Of a stretch of 64,000 nucleotides of DNA, positions 1,867-59,581 are shown one piece after another (the stretch's first letter is position 1; each line of letters starts with the position of its first letter). The DNA comes from Chloroherpeton thalassium ATCC 35110 (lineage in GTDB: Bacteria > Bacteroidota > Chlorobiia > Chlorobiales > Chloroherpetonaceae), in the NCBI RefSeq assembly GCF_000020525.1, contig NC_011026.1, positions 1,346,001 to 1,410,000 on the forward strand, given 5' to 3'. The position numbers and the translations under genes were made by a program. The notes under the pieces are model-generated. The model was not told the DNA's origin, ran no database searches, and was given only the letters and a program-made list of their open reading frames with translations.

Positions 1867-2787
1867 ATGTGCGATACTTGCGGATGCAACCAACCCGGGA
1901 GCGCAGTGACCATTCGTAAACCTGGCGAAATGAAAGCGTGCGATTGCGATGGAAATTGTGAACAAGATTGCCACGAGCATGATCATGAGCACGGCCATGA
2001 ACATCATCATCACGAACATGGACATGGTCATCATCACCATCATGATCATGAGCACGGCCATGAGCATCACCATCACGAACATGGACATGGTCATCATCAC
2101 CATCATGATCATGAGCACAGCCATAGCCGCACGGTTGAAATTGAACAAGACGTGCTACTTAAAAACAACCTGCTGGCCGAGCGCAATCGTGGTTATTTTG
2201 AGGCAAAAGGAATTTTTGCGCTCAATTTGGTCAGTTCGCCAGGTTCTGGAAAGACAACCTTCCTTGAAAAAACAATTTCTGATTTAAAGGAAACCGTAAA
2301 TTTTGCTGTTATCGAAGGCGATCAGCAAAGCATGCGCGACGCAGACCGCATTCACGCAACGGGCGTGCCTGTCGTGCAAGTCAATACGGGAAAAGGTTGC
2401 CACCTCGATGCCGACATGGTGAATCGCTCCATCAAGGAAATGGAGTTGGCGCAAGACAGCGTCTTGTTGATTGAGAATGTCGGAAATTTGGTTTGTCCGG
2501 CACTTTTTGATTTGGGCGAAGCGATGAAAATCGTAGTCATTAGCGTCACGGAAGGCGATGATAAGCCGCAAAAATATCCGACCATGTTCGACGCCGCAGA
2601 AATTTGTATCATCAACAAAATTGACCTATTGCCATACGTAGAGTTCGATGTGGAAAAATGTCGTCAGTATGCGCTGGAGGTCAATCATCATTTAAAATTC
2701 TTTGAAGTCTCAGCCAAAACTGGCGAAGGCATGAAGGACTGGGAAGAATGGCTCACGGCCAAAGCGAAAGAGAGCGAGCAAGCATAG
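1867..2787 (+). CDS. hypB: Hydrogenase maturation GTPase HypB with His-rich nickel-storage region
   Basis: HypB is the GTPase that drives nickel insertion into [NiFe] hydrogenase. The N-terminus carries the high-affinity nickel motif MCDTCGC. Residues about 36-87 are an extreme His/Glu/Asp/Gly run made of two near-identical 21-residue repeats, the kind of tail known to store nickel in some HypB proteins. The G domain follows, with Walker A SSPGSGKTT at about 123-131, the CPALFDLGE metal/switch segment and NKIDLLP. A strong AAGGAG site precedes the ATG. The end overlaps hypF by 40 bases. Confidence 0.96.
   Translation: MCDTCGCNQPGSAVTIRKPGEMKACDCDGNCEQDCHEHDHEHGHEHHHHEHGHGHHHHHDHEHGHEHHHHEHGHGHHHHHDHEHSHSRTVEIEQDVLLKNNLLAERNRGYFEAKGIFALNLVSSPGSGKTTFLEKTISDLKETVNFAVIEGDQQSMRDADRIHATGVPVVQVNTGKGCHLDADMVNRSIKEMELAQDSVLLIENVGNLVCPALFDLGEAMKIVVISVTEGDDKPQKYPTMFDAAEICIINKIDLLPYVEFDVEKCRQYALEVNHHLKFFEVSAKTGEGMKDWEEWLTAKAKESEQA
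1978..2103 (+). repeat. hypB: Tandem 63-bp repeat encoding the HypB His-rich tract
   Basis: Copy 1 (1978-2040) and copy 2 (2041-2103) are head to tail and differ at two bases (a/g and t/c). Both keep the reading frame, so each unit adds 21 residues rich in His. A partial third copy begins at 2104. The near identity points to recent duplication by slippage or unequal exchange. Confidence 0.93.
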
Positions 2788-25825: not shown

Positions 25826-26612
25826 TGTTCCTTTTTTAAGCAAACAAAAAAGAAAGTTTTTCGCGCGGCTTCACGATAAAAAGTTTCGAGAAAAAGAGCA
25901 GCTTTTTTTGGCAGAAGGGCTTCGCACGGTCACAGAGTTGCTTTCAGCGTGCAACGCAGAAGATGATTTGGTGGCAATCGTTGTTAAAGTGCCAATCGAT
26001 AACGACTTAAAAAAGCCCGATTGTAATGCTGGAAAAGTGTTTGTCGCAGAAAAATCAGATTTTGAAACCATATCGGCAACTGAGCAAACGCAAGGTGTTG
26101 TCGGGATTTTTCGTCAGCCAAAAGCAGATGAGGCGAGTGTTTTTCAGCAGCTTGAAGAGAAAAAGACCGCGCTTGTGCTAATTTGGGATGGCATTCAAGA
26201 TCCTGGTAATGCGGGCACAATGATCCGTACAGCCGCTTGGTTTGGCGCAGATGCTATTTTTGCCAGCCACGATAGCGTGGATTTTTTCAACCCAAAAGTT
26301 GTGCGTGCGTCAGCCGGAAGTCTTTTCGCCCTTCCATTAATCAAGTCGGCGTCACTTGGTTTCGTGGTTGATGAACTCAAGCAAAAAAGATTGACCGTAT
26401 ACGCCAGCTCCCCAGCTGGGACATCAATATGGGAAGTTTCTAAGCCCAAAAAAACGGCGTTGATTATCGGAAGCGAAGCAAACGGGGTAACAAGCGCATT
26501 ATTTTTGAAAACCGATCAGCAAATTACAATTCCTGGAAACTCAAGTGCAGTGGAGTCGTTAAATGCAGCTATCTCGGCTGGCATCTTAACAGCCGCTTTC
26601 ATGCCTCATTAG
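25794..26612 (+). CDS. TrmH/SpoU-family RNA 2'-O-methyltransferase
   Basis: SPOUT enzymes methylate ribose 2'-OH groups in rRNA or tRNA. The N-terminal RNA-binding part has the LFLAEGLRTVTELL segment. The knotted catalytic domain shows IWDGIQDPGNAGTMIRTAAWFGAD (motif 1), ALIIGSEANGV (motif 2) and IPGNSSAVESLNAAISAGIL (motif 3). A run from an in-frame TTG at 25773 is possible, but ATG 25794 has an AGAGG site at good spacing and is preferred. The exact target nucleotide is not readable. Confidence 0.92.
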   Translation: MRGNHENQWVDVPFLSKQKRKFFARLHDKKFREKEQLFLAEGLRTVTELLSACNAEDDLVAIVVKVPIDNDLKKPDCNAGKVFVAEKSDFETISATEQTQGVVGIFRQPKADEASVFQQLEEKKTALVLIWDGIQDPGNAGTMIRTAAWFGADAIFASHDSVDFFNPKVVRASAGSLFALPLIKSASLGFVVDELKQKRLTVYASSPAGTSIWEVSKPKKTALIIGSEANGVTSALFLKTDQQITIPGNSSAVESLNAAISAGILTAAFMPH

Positions 26613-26746
26613 CGGTGATTCTGCAATTTGCTGTAACTGTAATTTGATTTCCCTATACTGAAATAAACGCCTGTCGAAATATTGATTAAGTCGGAATGTA
26701 AGCTTCGTGCAAAATGGTTGTAGTGCATTACTTTGTAGAAAATAAA

Positions 26747-26778
26747 AAAGTGGTGCTGTGGGGGGAAAGCACCACTTT
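26747..26778. repeat. Perfect 10-bp stem-loop
   Basis: AAAGTGGTGC (26747-26756) pairs with GCACCACTTT (26769-26778) around a 12-base G/A-rich loop. On the minus strand a T-rich stretch follows, so it would work as a terminator for leftward transcripts. It immediately precedes the tandem array. Confidence 0.75.
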
Positions 26779-26788
26779 CTCGCTGCAC

Positions 26789-26925
26789 AAAGCCTGAGGG
26801 CCGCTTTCATGCTGAGAAAAAGAACACAGCATGAGAAAGTTTGAGGGAAACTTTTGCTGAAAAGAACACAGCACCAAAGCCTGAGGGTCGCTTTTTGCTG
26901 AGAGAAAGAACACTGAAGGTCGCTT
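26789..26925 (+). repeat. Degenerate tandem repeat of small hairpins
   Basis: Three units and a partial fourth share AAAG-[loop with TGAGGG]-CTTT, then TGCTGA, A-rich DNA and AAGAACAC(A)G. Hairpins are at 26789-26807, 26836-26854 and 26876-26894. The second replaces the C/G pair next to the AAAG/CTTT stem by T/A pairs, so pairing is kept while sequence changes. Spacing between units is 47 then 40 bases. Confidence 0.7.
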
Positions 26926-27140
26926 TATCCTTGAAGCTTAACTTATACAAAGGTAAGAAAAGGGTATTAACGCCGCACTTAATGGAGATATTAAAAAAAG
27001 AGAGTTTGTAAAAAATTATTTGGCTTTGAGAAATTTTTATAAGTAAATGGATAAAAATTTCCAGTTATTTCGAGAGAATGAGAAGGTTGAAAAAGCAATA
27101 GAAAAGTGAATATCAGGGTTTAACTAAAACGAAACACGCG

Positions 27141-29777
27141 ATGAAAATATATTTGCCATCAGAATTGCAATGTTACACCCCTGTATCAACCACATTAGAT
27201 GAGCAGTATATTTCTAATCCGATTTTTATTGGTCGTGACCAAGAGATAGCTACTTTATCAAGAGATTTGCTCGTTCAGACTGCCCAATTAATTACCATTA
27301 CAGGGGCGGGCGGGATTGGAAAAACCCGTTTGGTGTTGGAAATCGCTTTTAGACTACGAGATCACTTCCCTGATGGTGTCTTTTTCGTGCCTCTTGCAAG
27401 TGTGGATTCGCCTGAATCTTTACTGAACGCCATCACAAATGAACTTCGATTTTCCCTTCATAGCCGGTTGGATTTGAAAACTCGCTTGAACACTTATTTA
27501 AAAGGAAAAAATATATTGCTCGTGCTTGACAACTACGAGCACTTGCTTGATGGGGCTTATCAAGAACAGCCAAGAGATTGCCGCACGATTTTAATTGAGC
27601 TTTTAGCTGCATCGCCTGGCACGAAACTACTTGTTACATCGCGCGAGCCGCTCGGGATGCCCATCGAGCGGATTTATGAGCTAAAGGGAATGCCATACCC
27701 GAACGATGAAATGGAATTAAATCCAGAAAGTTTTAGCTCAGTGGAGTTATTTCTAAGTGAGGCTGAGCGAGTCAAGCCCGGCACAATCTTTTCCCCAGCT
27801 GAAAAGCGCTACATCGCGCGGATGTGTAAATTTGTGGAAGGGATGCCTCTTGGTGTTAAGTTGGCGGCATCTTGGGTCAGAACGCTGACTTGCAAAGAGA
27901 TTTCGCAAGAATTTGAAGAATTAGCAAATGTTCAAGCTGTGCCAAGCATGGCTGTTCCAGAACGTCATAGAAATATGCGCTATGTTTTTGAGCAGTCATG
28001 GCGAAGGCTTACCGATGAAGAGCAATCCATTATTAAGCGCTGTGCGGTATTTCGCGGTGGCGCTGGAAAAAAAGCCATTGATTCGATCGCAGGGGCAAAT
28101 TTGCCGATTCTTTCAAGCTTAATTGAGAAATCTTTAATTCATCGCACCATTTCAGAGGGATATGATCAGCACAGCCGCTACGATGTCCATGAGCTCCTGA
28201 GGCAATTTTCTGAGGAAAAATTGATGGCGCGTCCAGAGGAAGCGAACTGGGTGCGATTGCAACACTGCCAATATTTTTTGAATCTGCTTTCGGAGTTGGA
28301 CGCTTCGCTGACCGCTGGAAACCAGATTCATGCTATCAGTGAGATTGAGGAAGATATTGACAACATTCGTGTGGCGTGGTTGTGGGCTGTGAAAAATGAT
28401 CTGTACACAGAAATGTCCAGTGCCGTTGGGCCTCTCGCGCATTTTTTCGACATACGCGGCTTGATTTATGAAGGCTGTGAATTATTTGAAATTGCCATAA
28501 AGAAATTTATGGCTGGTGGACTATCACCCAAGAGCGATTCGGTTGTGGAAAAAGAGCGACTAACAGTGTTAGGGATGCTCTTGCTTCGCCAAGGATTTTT
28601 ATTTAGCCGACTTTCTCGCTACAACAAGGCGGTAGAATTGCTTGAGCAAAGTCTTTTGATTTTTCGCAGTTTGAACAATGTTGATAAAGAGCTGGCGTTT
28701 GCCTTGAACTATCTTGGCCATGTCGAATATTTTATCGGAAAATATGAAGCGGCAGACGTGCATTGTAATGAGGCACTGGCCATTCGCGAAAAGATGGATG
28801 ACAAGGTTCGAATTGGCGACACGATGATTAATATTGGCTTCGGCGCTTTCATGAAAGGAGATTTTAAGAAGGCGGAAGACATTTCGAAAAAAATAGCTTC
28901 AACGGCAAAGGAAAAAAATGATCGCCGCGGTCAGGCAATCGGAACGGGCGCATTGGCCTATGTAAATCATGCGTTAGGCCTGTATGATATTGCTCAAATT
29001 CAGTATGAAGAAAGCATTTCGATCTGCAATGAATTAGGACTTCAATGGTTCTCGCCATGGTTTATGACGAATTTTAGCCTTGTCGAACTTGCGTTAGGCA
29101 ATGAGAAAAAGGCGATGCAATTAGCAACGGAATCCATTGCGCTGATTCGTGAAATAGGTGATCAATACCGACTCATTCATGCGCGGGTGAACTTGGCCAC
29201 AATTTTGATAGAAACCGGTTCGCTTGATGAAGCAAATCGTTCAGCGATTCAAGCCTTAGAAATGAGCCAAGATGTTTCGCATTGCTACGGCGAAGCGCGA
29301 GCGCTGAACATACTTGCGGCAATTGCTATTGCAAAAAAGCAGCCTCAAATTGCTTTCAATTATGCGTTGAAGAGCGAGAGAATCAATGAAGTTTCAGGTC
29401 AGCGCGCCGTGTTGGGGCAGGCGCATGGTTTGTTAGGAAAAGCGTTTCTACAAACCCGAGATCTTAAAAAAGCATTAAGCTTTATCGGCAAAGGCTTCAA
29501 GGAATCGACTTATGTTAATGCGATTCCACAGGCGCTCGAGATGCTGACCGACTGGGCAGCCATTTATCTGATGGATGGAAAAGAGAAGGACGGATTAGAA
29601 TTTCTCAATATTGTAAATGCTCATGCAAAAACTCCTTTTTTTGTGAAAGCACGAGCGACAGGGCTTTTAACCCAATATCATTTGATGGACGCCATTCAGC
29701 CGCCAGATGCTGCGTCACTTCATGATTCGGAGCAAATGTTTCGCGACTTGGCCAACCGACTTCTGCGATTAAGTTGA
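27141..29777 (+). CDS. STAND-class ATPase with C-terminal TPR repeats
   Basis: This 878-residue protein resembles the ATPase-plus-TPR half of AfsR/MalT-type regulators. Walker A is GAGGIGKT at about 55-62 and Walker B is LLVLDNYEH at about 126-134. A sensor-like LLVTSREPLG and a winged helical part (SWRRLTDEEQSIIKRCAVFRGGA) follow. From about residue 400 onward it is tetratricopeptide-like repeats. There is no HTH at either end, so it cannot bind DNA by the usual LuxR domain. Its stop is only 9 bp from the stop of a convergent SARP regulator, which carries the missing DNA-binding domain. Confidence 0.85.
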   Translation: MKIYLPSELQCYTPVSTTLDEQYISNPIFIGRDQEIATLSRDLLVQTAQLITITGAGGIGKTRLVLEIAFRLRDHFPDGVFFVPLASVDSPESLLNAITNELRFSLHSRLDLKTRLNTYLKGKNILLVLDNYEHLLDGAYQEQPRDCRTILIELLAASPGTKLLVTSREPLGMPIERIYELKGMPYPNDEMELNPESFSSVELFLSEAERVKPGTIFSPAEKRYIARMCKFVEGMPLGVKLAASWVRTLTCKEISQEFEELANVQAVPSMAVPERHRNMRYVFEQSWRRLTDEEQSIIKRCAVFRGGAGKKAIDSIAGANLPILSSLIEKSLIHRTISEGYDQHSRYDVHELLRQFSEEKLMARPEEANWVRLQHCQYFLNLLSELDASLTAGNQIHAISEIEEDIDNIRVAWLWAVKNDLYTEMSSAVGPLAHFFDIRGLIYEGCELFEIAIKKFMAGGLSPKSDSVVEKERLTVLGMLLLRQGFLFSRLSRYNKAVELLEQSLLIFRSLNNVDKELAFALNYLGHVEYFIGKYEAADVHCNEALAIREKMDDKVRIGDTMINIGFGAFMKGDFKKAEDISKKIASTAKEKNDRRGQAIGTGALAYVNHALGLYDIAQIQYEESISICNELGLQWFSPWFMTNFSLVELALGNEKKAMQLATESIALIREIGDQYRLIHARVNLATILIETGSLDEANRSAIQALEMSQDVSHCYGEARALNILAAIAIAKKQPQIAFNYALKSERINEVSGQRAVLGQAHGLLGKAFLQTRDLKKALSFIGKGFKESTYVNAIPQALEMLTDWAAIYLMDGKEKDGLEFLNIVNAHAKTPFFVKARATGLLTQYHLMDAIQPPDAASLHDSEQMFRDLANRLLRLS

Positions 29778-29786
29778 TCTCTTCCG

Positions 29787-31331
29787 TTAAATGTTTAGAA
29801 CGTACTCTTTGTAAGTTCTTTCTATGGCTGGCGAAGGCAGTGAGTTGAACTCTTCGCGAGCCATTTGTTTATAGTGCTCGTAGTAGTCTTTTGCGAGCGC
29901 ATAATTTTCTAACAAACCGGATAATTTAATGGCCTTTTCATAAGCCCAATCGTCGAAGGGGTTTATTTTGAGCATTTCGTCAACAATTCCAAGCGCTTGT
30001 TGAAATTCGCGTTCTTCTTCGAGCAGCGTCGCCATGTCCTGATTGCCATTGTTATATAAGCGTTCAAAATAATCTCGCGATTCGTCTACCCAATCATCTT
30101 CAAATTCCGGAACAAAAGAGCCTTTATATAAGGCGCGCGCGCGTTCGAAGCTGCTAAGCGCAACTTCGATTCTGGCTTGGCGTTTGGCTTCGGAGGCTTG
30201 TTTTATTTCCTTTTCGAACTCATACCAATCCACCAGCAAATTGCTGGTATCCACGTTGTAATAGCCATCGTGATGATGGATCAGATCTGGCCGATTGAAA
30301 ACCCTGCGAATATTTGAAATGGTTGCATGAAAATTGTTGCTCAAGCTTTTCACATCGCTTTCTGGCCAAATGGCATCTGCAATTTTTTCCTTGGTTCGAC
30401 GAGGTTGTGGATGCAAAAGCAAGTAAAGCAAAAGCCTTCTGGCTTTTCCAGATTTCCAATCGCTTTTGGTTAATGGAAAAGGCTGTCCGGGAAGTTGAAT
30501 TTGGTACATCCCAAATCCAAAAATTTGGATCTGATCGCAAAGTGGCGGTTGCACATCTATAACTACCGGATGCGGTTTGATTTGTAGTTCCGAGAATTTA
30601 TTTCGAAAGATCGATTCTCGGGTTGCCAGCTGAAGCTTTTTGGCGAGCTCGATGGCTCGCATATGATACGTTTCAGCTTTTGGTTGAGGTAAGTTCGGAA
30701 TTAATGATGCACGGTGGTAGTACATCATCTTGTTGTAGATGCAATCTGTATTGAGCTGAATGGCTTGTTCAAAAAAAGCTTGAGCATCTTCGGTTTTTTG
30801 CTTTGCTAATGCGAGTTCCGCCTTTGTTTCTGCAAGGCCATCAGGCGAGTAAAAATCAATGTCTTCAGAAAATTCTTTCTCTACATCACCGAGGATTTGT
30901 TCTGCTTTTTCTGCAAAGCGTTGTCGGGCGAGAACGATGATTTTATAAAACTTAAATGGCAAGCGCATTTTTGGGATGTCGTTGCAAGAAAGCACTTCGA
31001 TGGCTTCATCGATGAAGGAATAAGCCAAGTCATGCTTCTCTAACTCTAAGTAAAGCTCTACCAAAAGTTGTAACGTAGAAAGATGAGACAGTACCAATTT
31101 TCGATGACGGAACTCGTGTAGGCAATCCATCGCGCCAGAGATGGTGTCGTCGTAATTTCCTAAATAATAAGAGGTTAAAACTTTTCCAAAGCGAGCTTCA
31201 TCAAGTTCAAACTCCGAAAAGTGTCCGACTTCTGATTTTTCCAAAAGCTTAACAGCTTGCGAAAATTCAAAGCGAGCCTCTTTTATATGGTGTTGCTTTA
31301 GTTTTTCTATCGCGGATTTTGTTAAACTCAC
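29787..31331 (-). CDS. SARP-type regulator with BTAD domain and TPR-like N-terminus
   Basis: The C-terminal half is an OmpR-like winged helix (LLLYLLLHPQPRRTKEKIADAIWPESDVKSLSNNFHATISNIRRVF). A bacterial transcriptional activation domain follows (WYEFEKEIKQA to PAIERTYKEYVL). The N-terminal half of about 270 residues is helical and TPR-like. SARP proteins usually carry the winged helix at the N-terminus, so the order here is unusual. It faces the STAND ATPase gene tail to tail with 9 bp between stops. Function is unknown, and joint regulation with the ATPase is an inference. Confidence 0.85.
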   Translation of the reverse strand: MSLTKSAIEKLKQHHIKEARFEFSQAVKLLEKSEVGHFSEFELDEARFGKVLTSYYLGNYDDTISGAMDCLHEFRHRKLVLSHLSTLQLLVELYLELEKHDLAYSFIDEAIEVLSCNDIPKMRLPFKFYKIIVLARQRFAEKAEQILGDVEKEFSEDIDFYSPDGLAETKAELALAKQKTEDAQAFFEQAIQLNTDCIYNKMMYYHRASLIPNLPQPKAETYHMRAIELAKKLQLATRESIFRNKFSELQIKPHPVVIDVQPPLCDQIQIFGFGMYQIQLPGQPFPLTKSDWKSGKARRLLLYLLLHPQPRRTKEKIADAIWPESDVKSLSNNFHATISNIRRVFNRPDLIHHHDGYYNVDTSNLLVDWYEFEKEIKQASEAKRQARIEVALSSFERARALYKGSFVPEFEDDWVDESRDYFERLYNNGNQDMATLLEEEREFQQALGIVDEMLKINPFDDWAYEKAIKLSGLLENYALAKDYYEHYKQMAREEFNSLPSPAIERTYKEYVLNI

Positions 31332-34193: not shown

Positions 34194-34213
34194 CCGATTA
34201 TAAAATCTTTTTT

Positions 34214-34248
34214 GTGGGAGGCGCGGCACACCTTTAGTATTTGGTGTG
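34214..34248 (+). promoter_or_regulatory. Possible L1-binding leader between rplK and rplA
   Basis: The mRNA contains GTGGGAGGC (34214-34222), the same nine bases as the L1-contact strand in 23S rRNA. A stem CACACC/GGTGTG (34227-34232 with 34243-34248) lies just 3' of it. L1 is known to repress its own mRNA by mimicry of the rRNA site. The complete fold was not computed. Confidence 0.4.
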
Positions 34249-35515: not shown

Positions 35516-35596
35516 GAATTTACGCACTCAATGGATTAGCTTCTCAGCCTTGTTAATAGAAACTTTTTAACACGCAAAAAAGAGGAAAGAAAAGCA

Positions 35597-59277: not shown

Positions 59278-59365
59278 CGGAGAGAGAGGGATTCGAACCC
59301 TCGAGGGCTGTTAAACCCTACCCGCTTTCCAGGCGAGCGCACTAGACCAACTATGCGACCTCTCC
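59278..59365 (-). tRNA. tRNA-Ser (anticodon GGA)
   Basis: Acceptor GGAGAGG pairs with TCTCTCC, with one G-U. The anticodon arm CTCGC-CTGGAAA-GCGGG gives GGA. The variable arm is long. CCA is not encoded. Confidence 0.94.
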
Positions 59366-59581
59366 AAACTTCATTGGTGTATATCGAACAAAAATCCCGT
59401 CTCAAGAACGGGGCTTTAAATATACAAACTTTGTTTTCTTCTCAAAAAATTTTAAGGAAATTCTTCCCGCTTTTTCTTCAGAACACATGAGGTGTAAAAA
59501 AATACCATTATGTGTTTTTTTAGAAAATTTCAAAAAGAATGAAAGCTTTTGTATCTTTGCAAAAGTGATAAGAATATGCAG

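Follow-up and report, generated by a model that had tools for sequence, protein, structure and literature searches.

What is the array of small hairpins that stands before a STAND ATPase gene of Chloroherpeton thalassium ATCC 35110, and to which gene does it belong? The array (26747-26926) lies in a window of 64,000 nucleotides, the whole stretch of DNA analysed here, from a genome that consists of a single contig of 3,293,456 bp. It falls inside a gap of exactly 528 nt, the length originally given, between the end of a SpoU/TrmH-type methylase gene (trmH, ending at 26612) and the start of a STAND-TPR gene, which is followed by a convergent TPR-BTAD gene (Table 1). The original prediction was of a structured RNA or a protein-binding array tied to the regulator gene. 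This was broadly right, since a second genus keeps the element ahead of its own STAND ortholog, but the same-strand reading, as a plus-strand element before the STAND gene, probably had the wrong strand. With a probability of roughly 55%, the hairpins make up the main part of a hitherto undescribed small RNA (sRNA) gene that lies on the minus strand and is transcribed in the direction leading away from the STAND gene.

The repeated units described before are all present. Three follow the form AAAG-NN-TGAGGG-NNN-CTTT (AAAGCCTGAGGGCCGCTTT, AAAGTTTGAGGGAAACTTT and AAAGCCTGAGGGTCGCTTT, the type-II hairpins a to c of Table 1), and a decayed fourth, CTGAAGGTCGCTTT, closes the array, the unit spacings being 47, 40 and 32. 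Across the window, three exact matches to the degenerate type-II unit were found, each of them within the array. Of the three companion segments of the form TGCTGA...AGAACAC(AGCA), here called type B, two (the first, CATGCTG/CAGCATG, and the second, TGCTG/CAGCA) are real hairpins; the third is broken. A perfect hairpin adjoins the units as predicted (hairpin I, 26747-26778), with a stem of 11 bp instead of 10; it was missed by the scanner we used because this allows loops of at most 8. The compensatory change reported between units is real for one pair, C-G in units 1 and 3 and T-A in unit 2, but only for that single pair: the next two inner stem positions are mismatched in units 1 and 3 and paired only in unit 2, so that covariation between units is weak. 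Individually, the type-II stems are also weak, at -1.8 to -4.3 kcal/mol.

Table 1. Features of the locus in window coordinates; G001 is a relative from another genus of the same family
Feature	Position	Strand	Sequence or structure	Remark
Hairpin I	26744..26778	-	11-bp stem, loop UUCCCCCCAC, then TTTTTTATTT	predicted intrinsic terminator, C-rich loop
Type-II hairpin a	26789..26807	-	AAAGCGGCCCUCAGGCUUU	20 nt (26789-26808) identical in G001
Type-B hairpin a	26808..26833	-	CAUGCUG / CAGCAUG, U-rich loop UGUUCUUUUUCU	z -4.6
Type-II hairpin b	26836..26854	-	AAAGUUU CCCUC AAACUUU, 7 bp, CCCUC loop	z -4.1
Type-B hairpin b	26855..26873	-	UGCUG UGUUCUUUU CAGCA, U-rich loop	
Type-II hairpin c	26876..26894	-	AAAGCGACCCUCAGGCUUU, loop with CCCUC	
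Broken type-B unit (26895-26913) and decayed fourth type-II unit (26908-26926, CCUUC)	26895..26926	-		without stable local fold
Predicted sRNA	26742..26941	-	about 200 nt	presumed start 6-7 nt downstream of the -7 box; end at T tract
-7 box	26948..26955	-	TACCTTTG, TAnnTTTG type	without recognisable -33 box; type used by the genome's tRNA promoters
Three direct repeats NTTAATA	26965..26994	-	TTTAATA, ATTAAGT, GTTAATA; exactly 12-bp period	predicted activator site; G001 L020 1438-1409 minus
STAND (NB-ARC) ATPase with TPR repeats	27141..29777	+		divergent from predicted sRNA; ortholog in G001
TPR protein	29787..31331	-	C-terminal OmpR-type winged helix and BTAD (SARP-like)	candidate activator; predicted winged helix low-confidence

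Searching the whole genome for the unit consensus, as had been proposed, brought no further copies: the array is the sole locus. With up to two mismatches allowed, other matches to the unit were no commoner than those to a reversed-pattern control, and BLAST with the whole element returned only itself at a meaningful E-value. A mobile or dispersed repeat was therefore rejected, and the earlier view that the array is neither CRISPR nor IS holds, given a single locus, irregular spacing and CRISPR-DR22 matches far below threshold. A phage origin was likewise set aside, as the two IMG/VR matches to a 17-base pattern were judged to be about what chance gives. Elsewhere in the window (1978-2124), a different tandem repeat of CAT/CAC-rich 63-bp units with a 96% match probably encodes a histidine-rich metal-binding stretch of a protein.

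Across the phylum, the unit pattern was found in 2 of 394 genomes, that of the window and G001, and was absent from the other 392. G001, which belongs to another genus of the same family, gave the sole credible match among 60 relatives, with 20 of 20 bases identical. Its element adjoins the orthologous STAND gene upstream, with ispG on the other flank in place of trmH, and gene order to the right is kept (STAND, BTAD, an SDR gene, nusG and rplK). The longest word common to both gaps is 20 nt, compared with a mean of 8.7 and a maximum of 12 in shuffles, and with only 9 in the neighbouring BTAD-SDR gap of the same two genomes. A covariance model built from G001 alone found the array as its best match in the window genome; in the other genomes of the order it gave no credible match, those with E-values of 0.28-0.97 looking like chance and three of them being one apparently coding stretch. 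The two genomes also share 17 identical nt in the rplK-rplA gap (34212-34228, TTGTGGGAGGCGCGGCA) and 16 in the rplJ-rplL gap (35517-35532, AATTTACGCACTCAAT), each a possible ribosomal-protein leader site.

The homolog in G001 is about 100 nt long (L020 1386-1284, minus) and consists of two hairpins, namely one type-II unit and one homolog of hairpin I (with a loop of the UAUCCCCCA type on minus), plus a terminator; no type-B hairpins are found in it. For this reason the ancestral form was probably type II with hairpin I, and the array probably an expansion in the window genome. This conservation bears on the distinctly unlikely reading that the array is an ordinary trmH terminator with neutral tandem duplications in decay. 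Such an origin would account for a hairpin that follows trmH, for the decayed fourth unit and third B hairpin, and for the single locus in the genome. It would leave unexpected that 20 identical nt and a hairpin are kept in the sister genus despite a different upstream gene, and the T tract of the window's terminator-like hairpin is poor on the plus strand, with three T. The original prediction had tied decay to units that occur nowhere else and are absent in relatives, and the outcome is mixed: the element is single-copy in its genome, yet present in the nearest relative.

The minus strand is favoured by three observations: the fold of hairpin I in G001, the T tracts and a promoter-like block. 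In G001, hairpin I (AAGUGGCU / AGCUACUU) has two base pairs fewer than in the window, missing from both arms and thus a paired change. It folds on the minus strand (-8.4 kcal/mol, z -3.0) and no better than chance on the plus strand (z +0.28), because its G-U pair on minus becomes an A-C mismatch on plus. The G001 region as a whole has z -1.1 on plus versus -3.1 on minus, and for the full 198-nt element of the window the values are -2.8 on plus versus -2.0 on minus; plus is at least as good there, which counts against the minus strand. Beside the upstream gene, each genome has a terminator-like hairpin whose T tract counts six T on minus but no more than three or four on plus. The clear tRNA terminators of the window genome mostly have at least six T in the direction of the gene, a comparison drawn from a small sample in which many terminators are nearly symmetric. 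The terminator-like hairpin may also work for trmH or ispG.

The same evidence weighs on the possibility that the hairpins form part of a long 5' UTR of the STAND mRNA, where they would control translation or early termination and their G-rich loops (GAGGG, GGGGGG) would be recognised. We consider such a plus-strand leader unlikely. It would explain why the element immediately precedes the STAND gene in either genome and why the window element folds well on plus, but it is at odds with the plus-strand folds of G001 just described and with the absence of any above-chance plus-strand promoter upstream of the array. Moreover, a -7 box and direct repeats lie between the array and the gene and point away from the gene. 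We therefore prefer transcription of the array from the minus strand, divergent from the STAND gene, as the probable arrangement.

The promoter-like block consists of this -7 box and the three direct repeats. The tRNA promoters of the genome (L082-L111; window 59365-59485) are Bacteroidetes-like, of the form TTTTGGA-N15-16-TAnnTTTG with a fairly constant spacer, and the tRNA gene at L086 uses the identical box TACCTTTG. The box before the array is the only TAnnTTTG site in the 528-nt gap, and its counterpart in G001 is TACATTTG (L020 1399-1392). We found no enrichment of TAnnTTTG upstream of all window genes, so the argument from the -7 box rests on the tRNA promoters. For the RNA, a promoter matrix trained on tRNA genes gave no convincing housekeeping promoter scoring above chance on either strand, the site of the -7 box included; one minus-strand site in G001 scoring 12.9 (95% of shuffled, 11.3) was rejected, having neither a TAnnTTTG box nor a counterpart in the window.

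The last TTAATA repeat ends 9 nt before TAnnTTTG in both genomes. The composite TTAA-N8-TTAA-N8-TTAATA-N9-TAnnTTTG occurs without mismatch once per genome, at the array locus and on minus in each; with three mismatches there are few matches elsewhere, about as many as for a control pattern, and TTAA triplets at a 12-bp period alone occur at 4 sites in the window genome and 13 in G001, motif statistics that are post hoc, the repeat motif having been found by looking. In the 40 nt before the -7 box, 23 of 40 positions are identical between the genomes, a value reached by 1 of 20000 shuffles; when all ungapped 40-mer pairs were scanned, an opposite-strand control reached a slightly higher 25 of 40, so that raw identity says little by itself and the phased motif has to carry the argument. 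The stronger support for the block is its uniqueness and its identical spacing in both genomes.

Might the array itself be a DNA element? In that case AAAGCCTGAGGGCCGCTTT and its copies would be binding sites of a regulator, perhaps of the BTAD protein, and no RNA would be made. Regulator genes adjoin the array, the stem is included in the 20-nt identity, and SARPs do bind direct repeats (PMC10936776). However, the spacings of the units fit neither 11- nor 22-bp phasing, G001 has one copy, and the asymmetric centre (GAGGG) is invariant and it is the symmetric flanks that differ in unit 2, opposite to the pattern usual in operators. The TTAATA repeats next door are the better operator candidate, and an operator function of the hairpins seems to us about as improbable as the plus-strand leader.

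What, then, could act at these repeats? In the STAND protein, NB-ARC is combined with TPR regions, and the match to AfsR-type models extends past the ATPase part; the protein's ortholog in G001 is 39% identical and the sole full-length one among 98 genomes of the order. The BTAD protein has a BTAD domain at 47.9 bits (cut-off 22.1) and a Trans_reg_C match of 23.4, slightly below the cut-off of 26.2, and SARP models match it at 294-420. Its predicted secondary structure fits a winged helix at low confidence, and the AlphaFold model of this region has a pLDDT of 25-45, too uncertain for a fold search. Both proteins are kept in G001 with 37-39% identity. In a third family (G003; L134 4834-8292), the BTAD homolog is a single chain of 1152 aa that runs from an ATPase at the N-terminus through TPRs to a SARP part at the C-terminus, which supports a joint action of the two proteins; neither the repeats nor the RNA were found at that locus. 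The SARP-like BTAD protein and the STAND protein together look like a split AfsR.

In SARP promoters, direct repeats are spaced 11 or 22 bp apart, and 8 bp separate the final copy from the -10 element (PMC10936776). An OmpR-type DNA-binding and BTAD regulator is indeed encoded near the array. The period here is exactly 12 in both genomes, and the last repeat is separated by 9 nt from a TAnnTTTG box without -33 box, in a group whose -7 boxes differ from -10 boxes. Because of the period of 12, we do not class the repeats as an afs box and regard them as afs-box-like only in how they would work. The system of Streptomyces in which AfsR acts on afsS (PMC10936776) resembles this locus in its regulator, which combines SARP, STAND and TPR parts, and, in kind but not exactly, in a target promoter with direct repeats over a weak -35 region. 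In both, a small gene nearby would be the target. It differs in that SARP and STAND are here two convergent genes, in the period of the repeats (11 bp there, 12 bp here), and in the product, which is a small protein there and a predicted RNA here.

Could the array encode a short repetitive protein? A frame of 61 codons with a non-ATG start does run across it on minus, and in Streptomyces afsS adjoins afsR, this neighbouring small gene being the target. We nevertheless find a protein-coding function very improbable, as the frames in G001 are short, with no shared residues beyond those that the DNA identity dictates, and the unit spacings are not multiples of three, so that the repeats are read in different frames.

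If the array is an sRNA gene, transcription would run from near 26941 to near 26742 and end at hairpin I. Its predicted promoter would need an activator, as the -7 box is present and the -33 box absent; this activator would bind the NTTAATA repeats and recruit RNA polymerase to the -7 box, and the SARP-like BTAD protein encoded nearby is the best candidate. The separate STAND-TPR protein would gate the activity of the BTAD protein, holding it in check or releasing it. That the BTAD protein drives the predicted sRNA is a tentative suggestion. Since the CCCUC and CCCCC loops are constant and inner stem positions vary, the loops may pair with G-rich mRNA sites; the RNA would act independently of Hfq and pair, through its repeated C-rich loops, with G-rich stretches close to the ribosome-binding sites of target mRNAs, and the extra hairpin copies of the window genome would raise valency or widen the target set. 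Hfq was found in neither genome. Complementarity to the STAND and BTAD leaders, the only leaders compared, amounts to matches of 7-8 nt that are not conserved, the 7-nt matches in the window's BTAD leader not being kept in G001.

Pairing of C-rich loops with G-rich mRNA sites is established for sX13 and RepG (PMC3771888, PMC8295292). The predicted RNA would expose such loops on stable hairpins, with CCCUC in the three intact type-II units and in G001 and CCCCC in the hairpin-I loop of both genomes, and it has, as a sequence feature, an intrinsic terminator of its own (a hairpin and six T on minus in both genomes). In sX13 of Xanthomonas several stable stems likewise bear C-rich apical loops, and its Hfq-independent action fits a genome without Hfq (PMC3771888). 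There is no relation in sequence or locus, and sX13 is an experimentally shown RNA of 115 nt with known G-rich targets, whereas the RNA here is a predicted one. RepG of Helicobacter pylori (PMC8295292) has a terminator loop that is itself C/U-rich, as in the array (UUCCCCCCAC), but it pairs with a G-repeat in the tlpB leader and comes from a different phylum and locus. A CsrA-titrating RNA of the CsrB/RsmZ type was rejected, with no CsrA (PF02599) in either genome; the search was positive in 3 of 14 controls, including E. coli. In Rfam 15, no family other than tRNAs exceeded the gathering threshold in the window, and weak matches in the gap were far below it. The Chlorobi-1 RNA (Rfam RF01696, PMC2864571) is a structured RNA candidate from the same wider bacterial group, but RF01696 has no match across the gap at E-values up to 5.

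In the part of the published record that our literature search covered, we found nothing on sRNAs of Chloroherpeton or on BTAD with a STAND ATPase and a small RNA, and no work on small RNAs with start sites in Chlorobaculum. Within that literature, the coupling of a C-rich-loop sRNA, a known class, to a split SARP/STAND pair would be new. The full proposal, that outside the actinobacteria a SARP/STAND pair, as a split AfsR, directly and exclusively drives an adjacent multi-hairpin sRNA and so relays the STAND switch to translation control by a C-rich-loop RNA without Hfq, is more doubtful than its step from BTAD protein to sRNA.

If our reading is true, the locus shows how hairpins first noticed on one strand may be part of a gene encoded on the other. 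A green sulfur bacterial lineage would have an sRNA tied to a SARP/STAND switch, and the AfsR design would be realised in two separate genes with an RNA as neighbouring output. The signal, the activator site and the RNA would then lie in one compact locus, in which they can be tested together.
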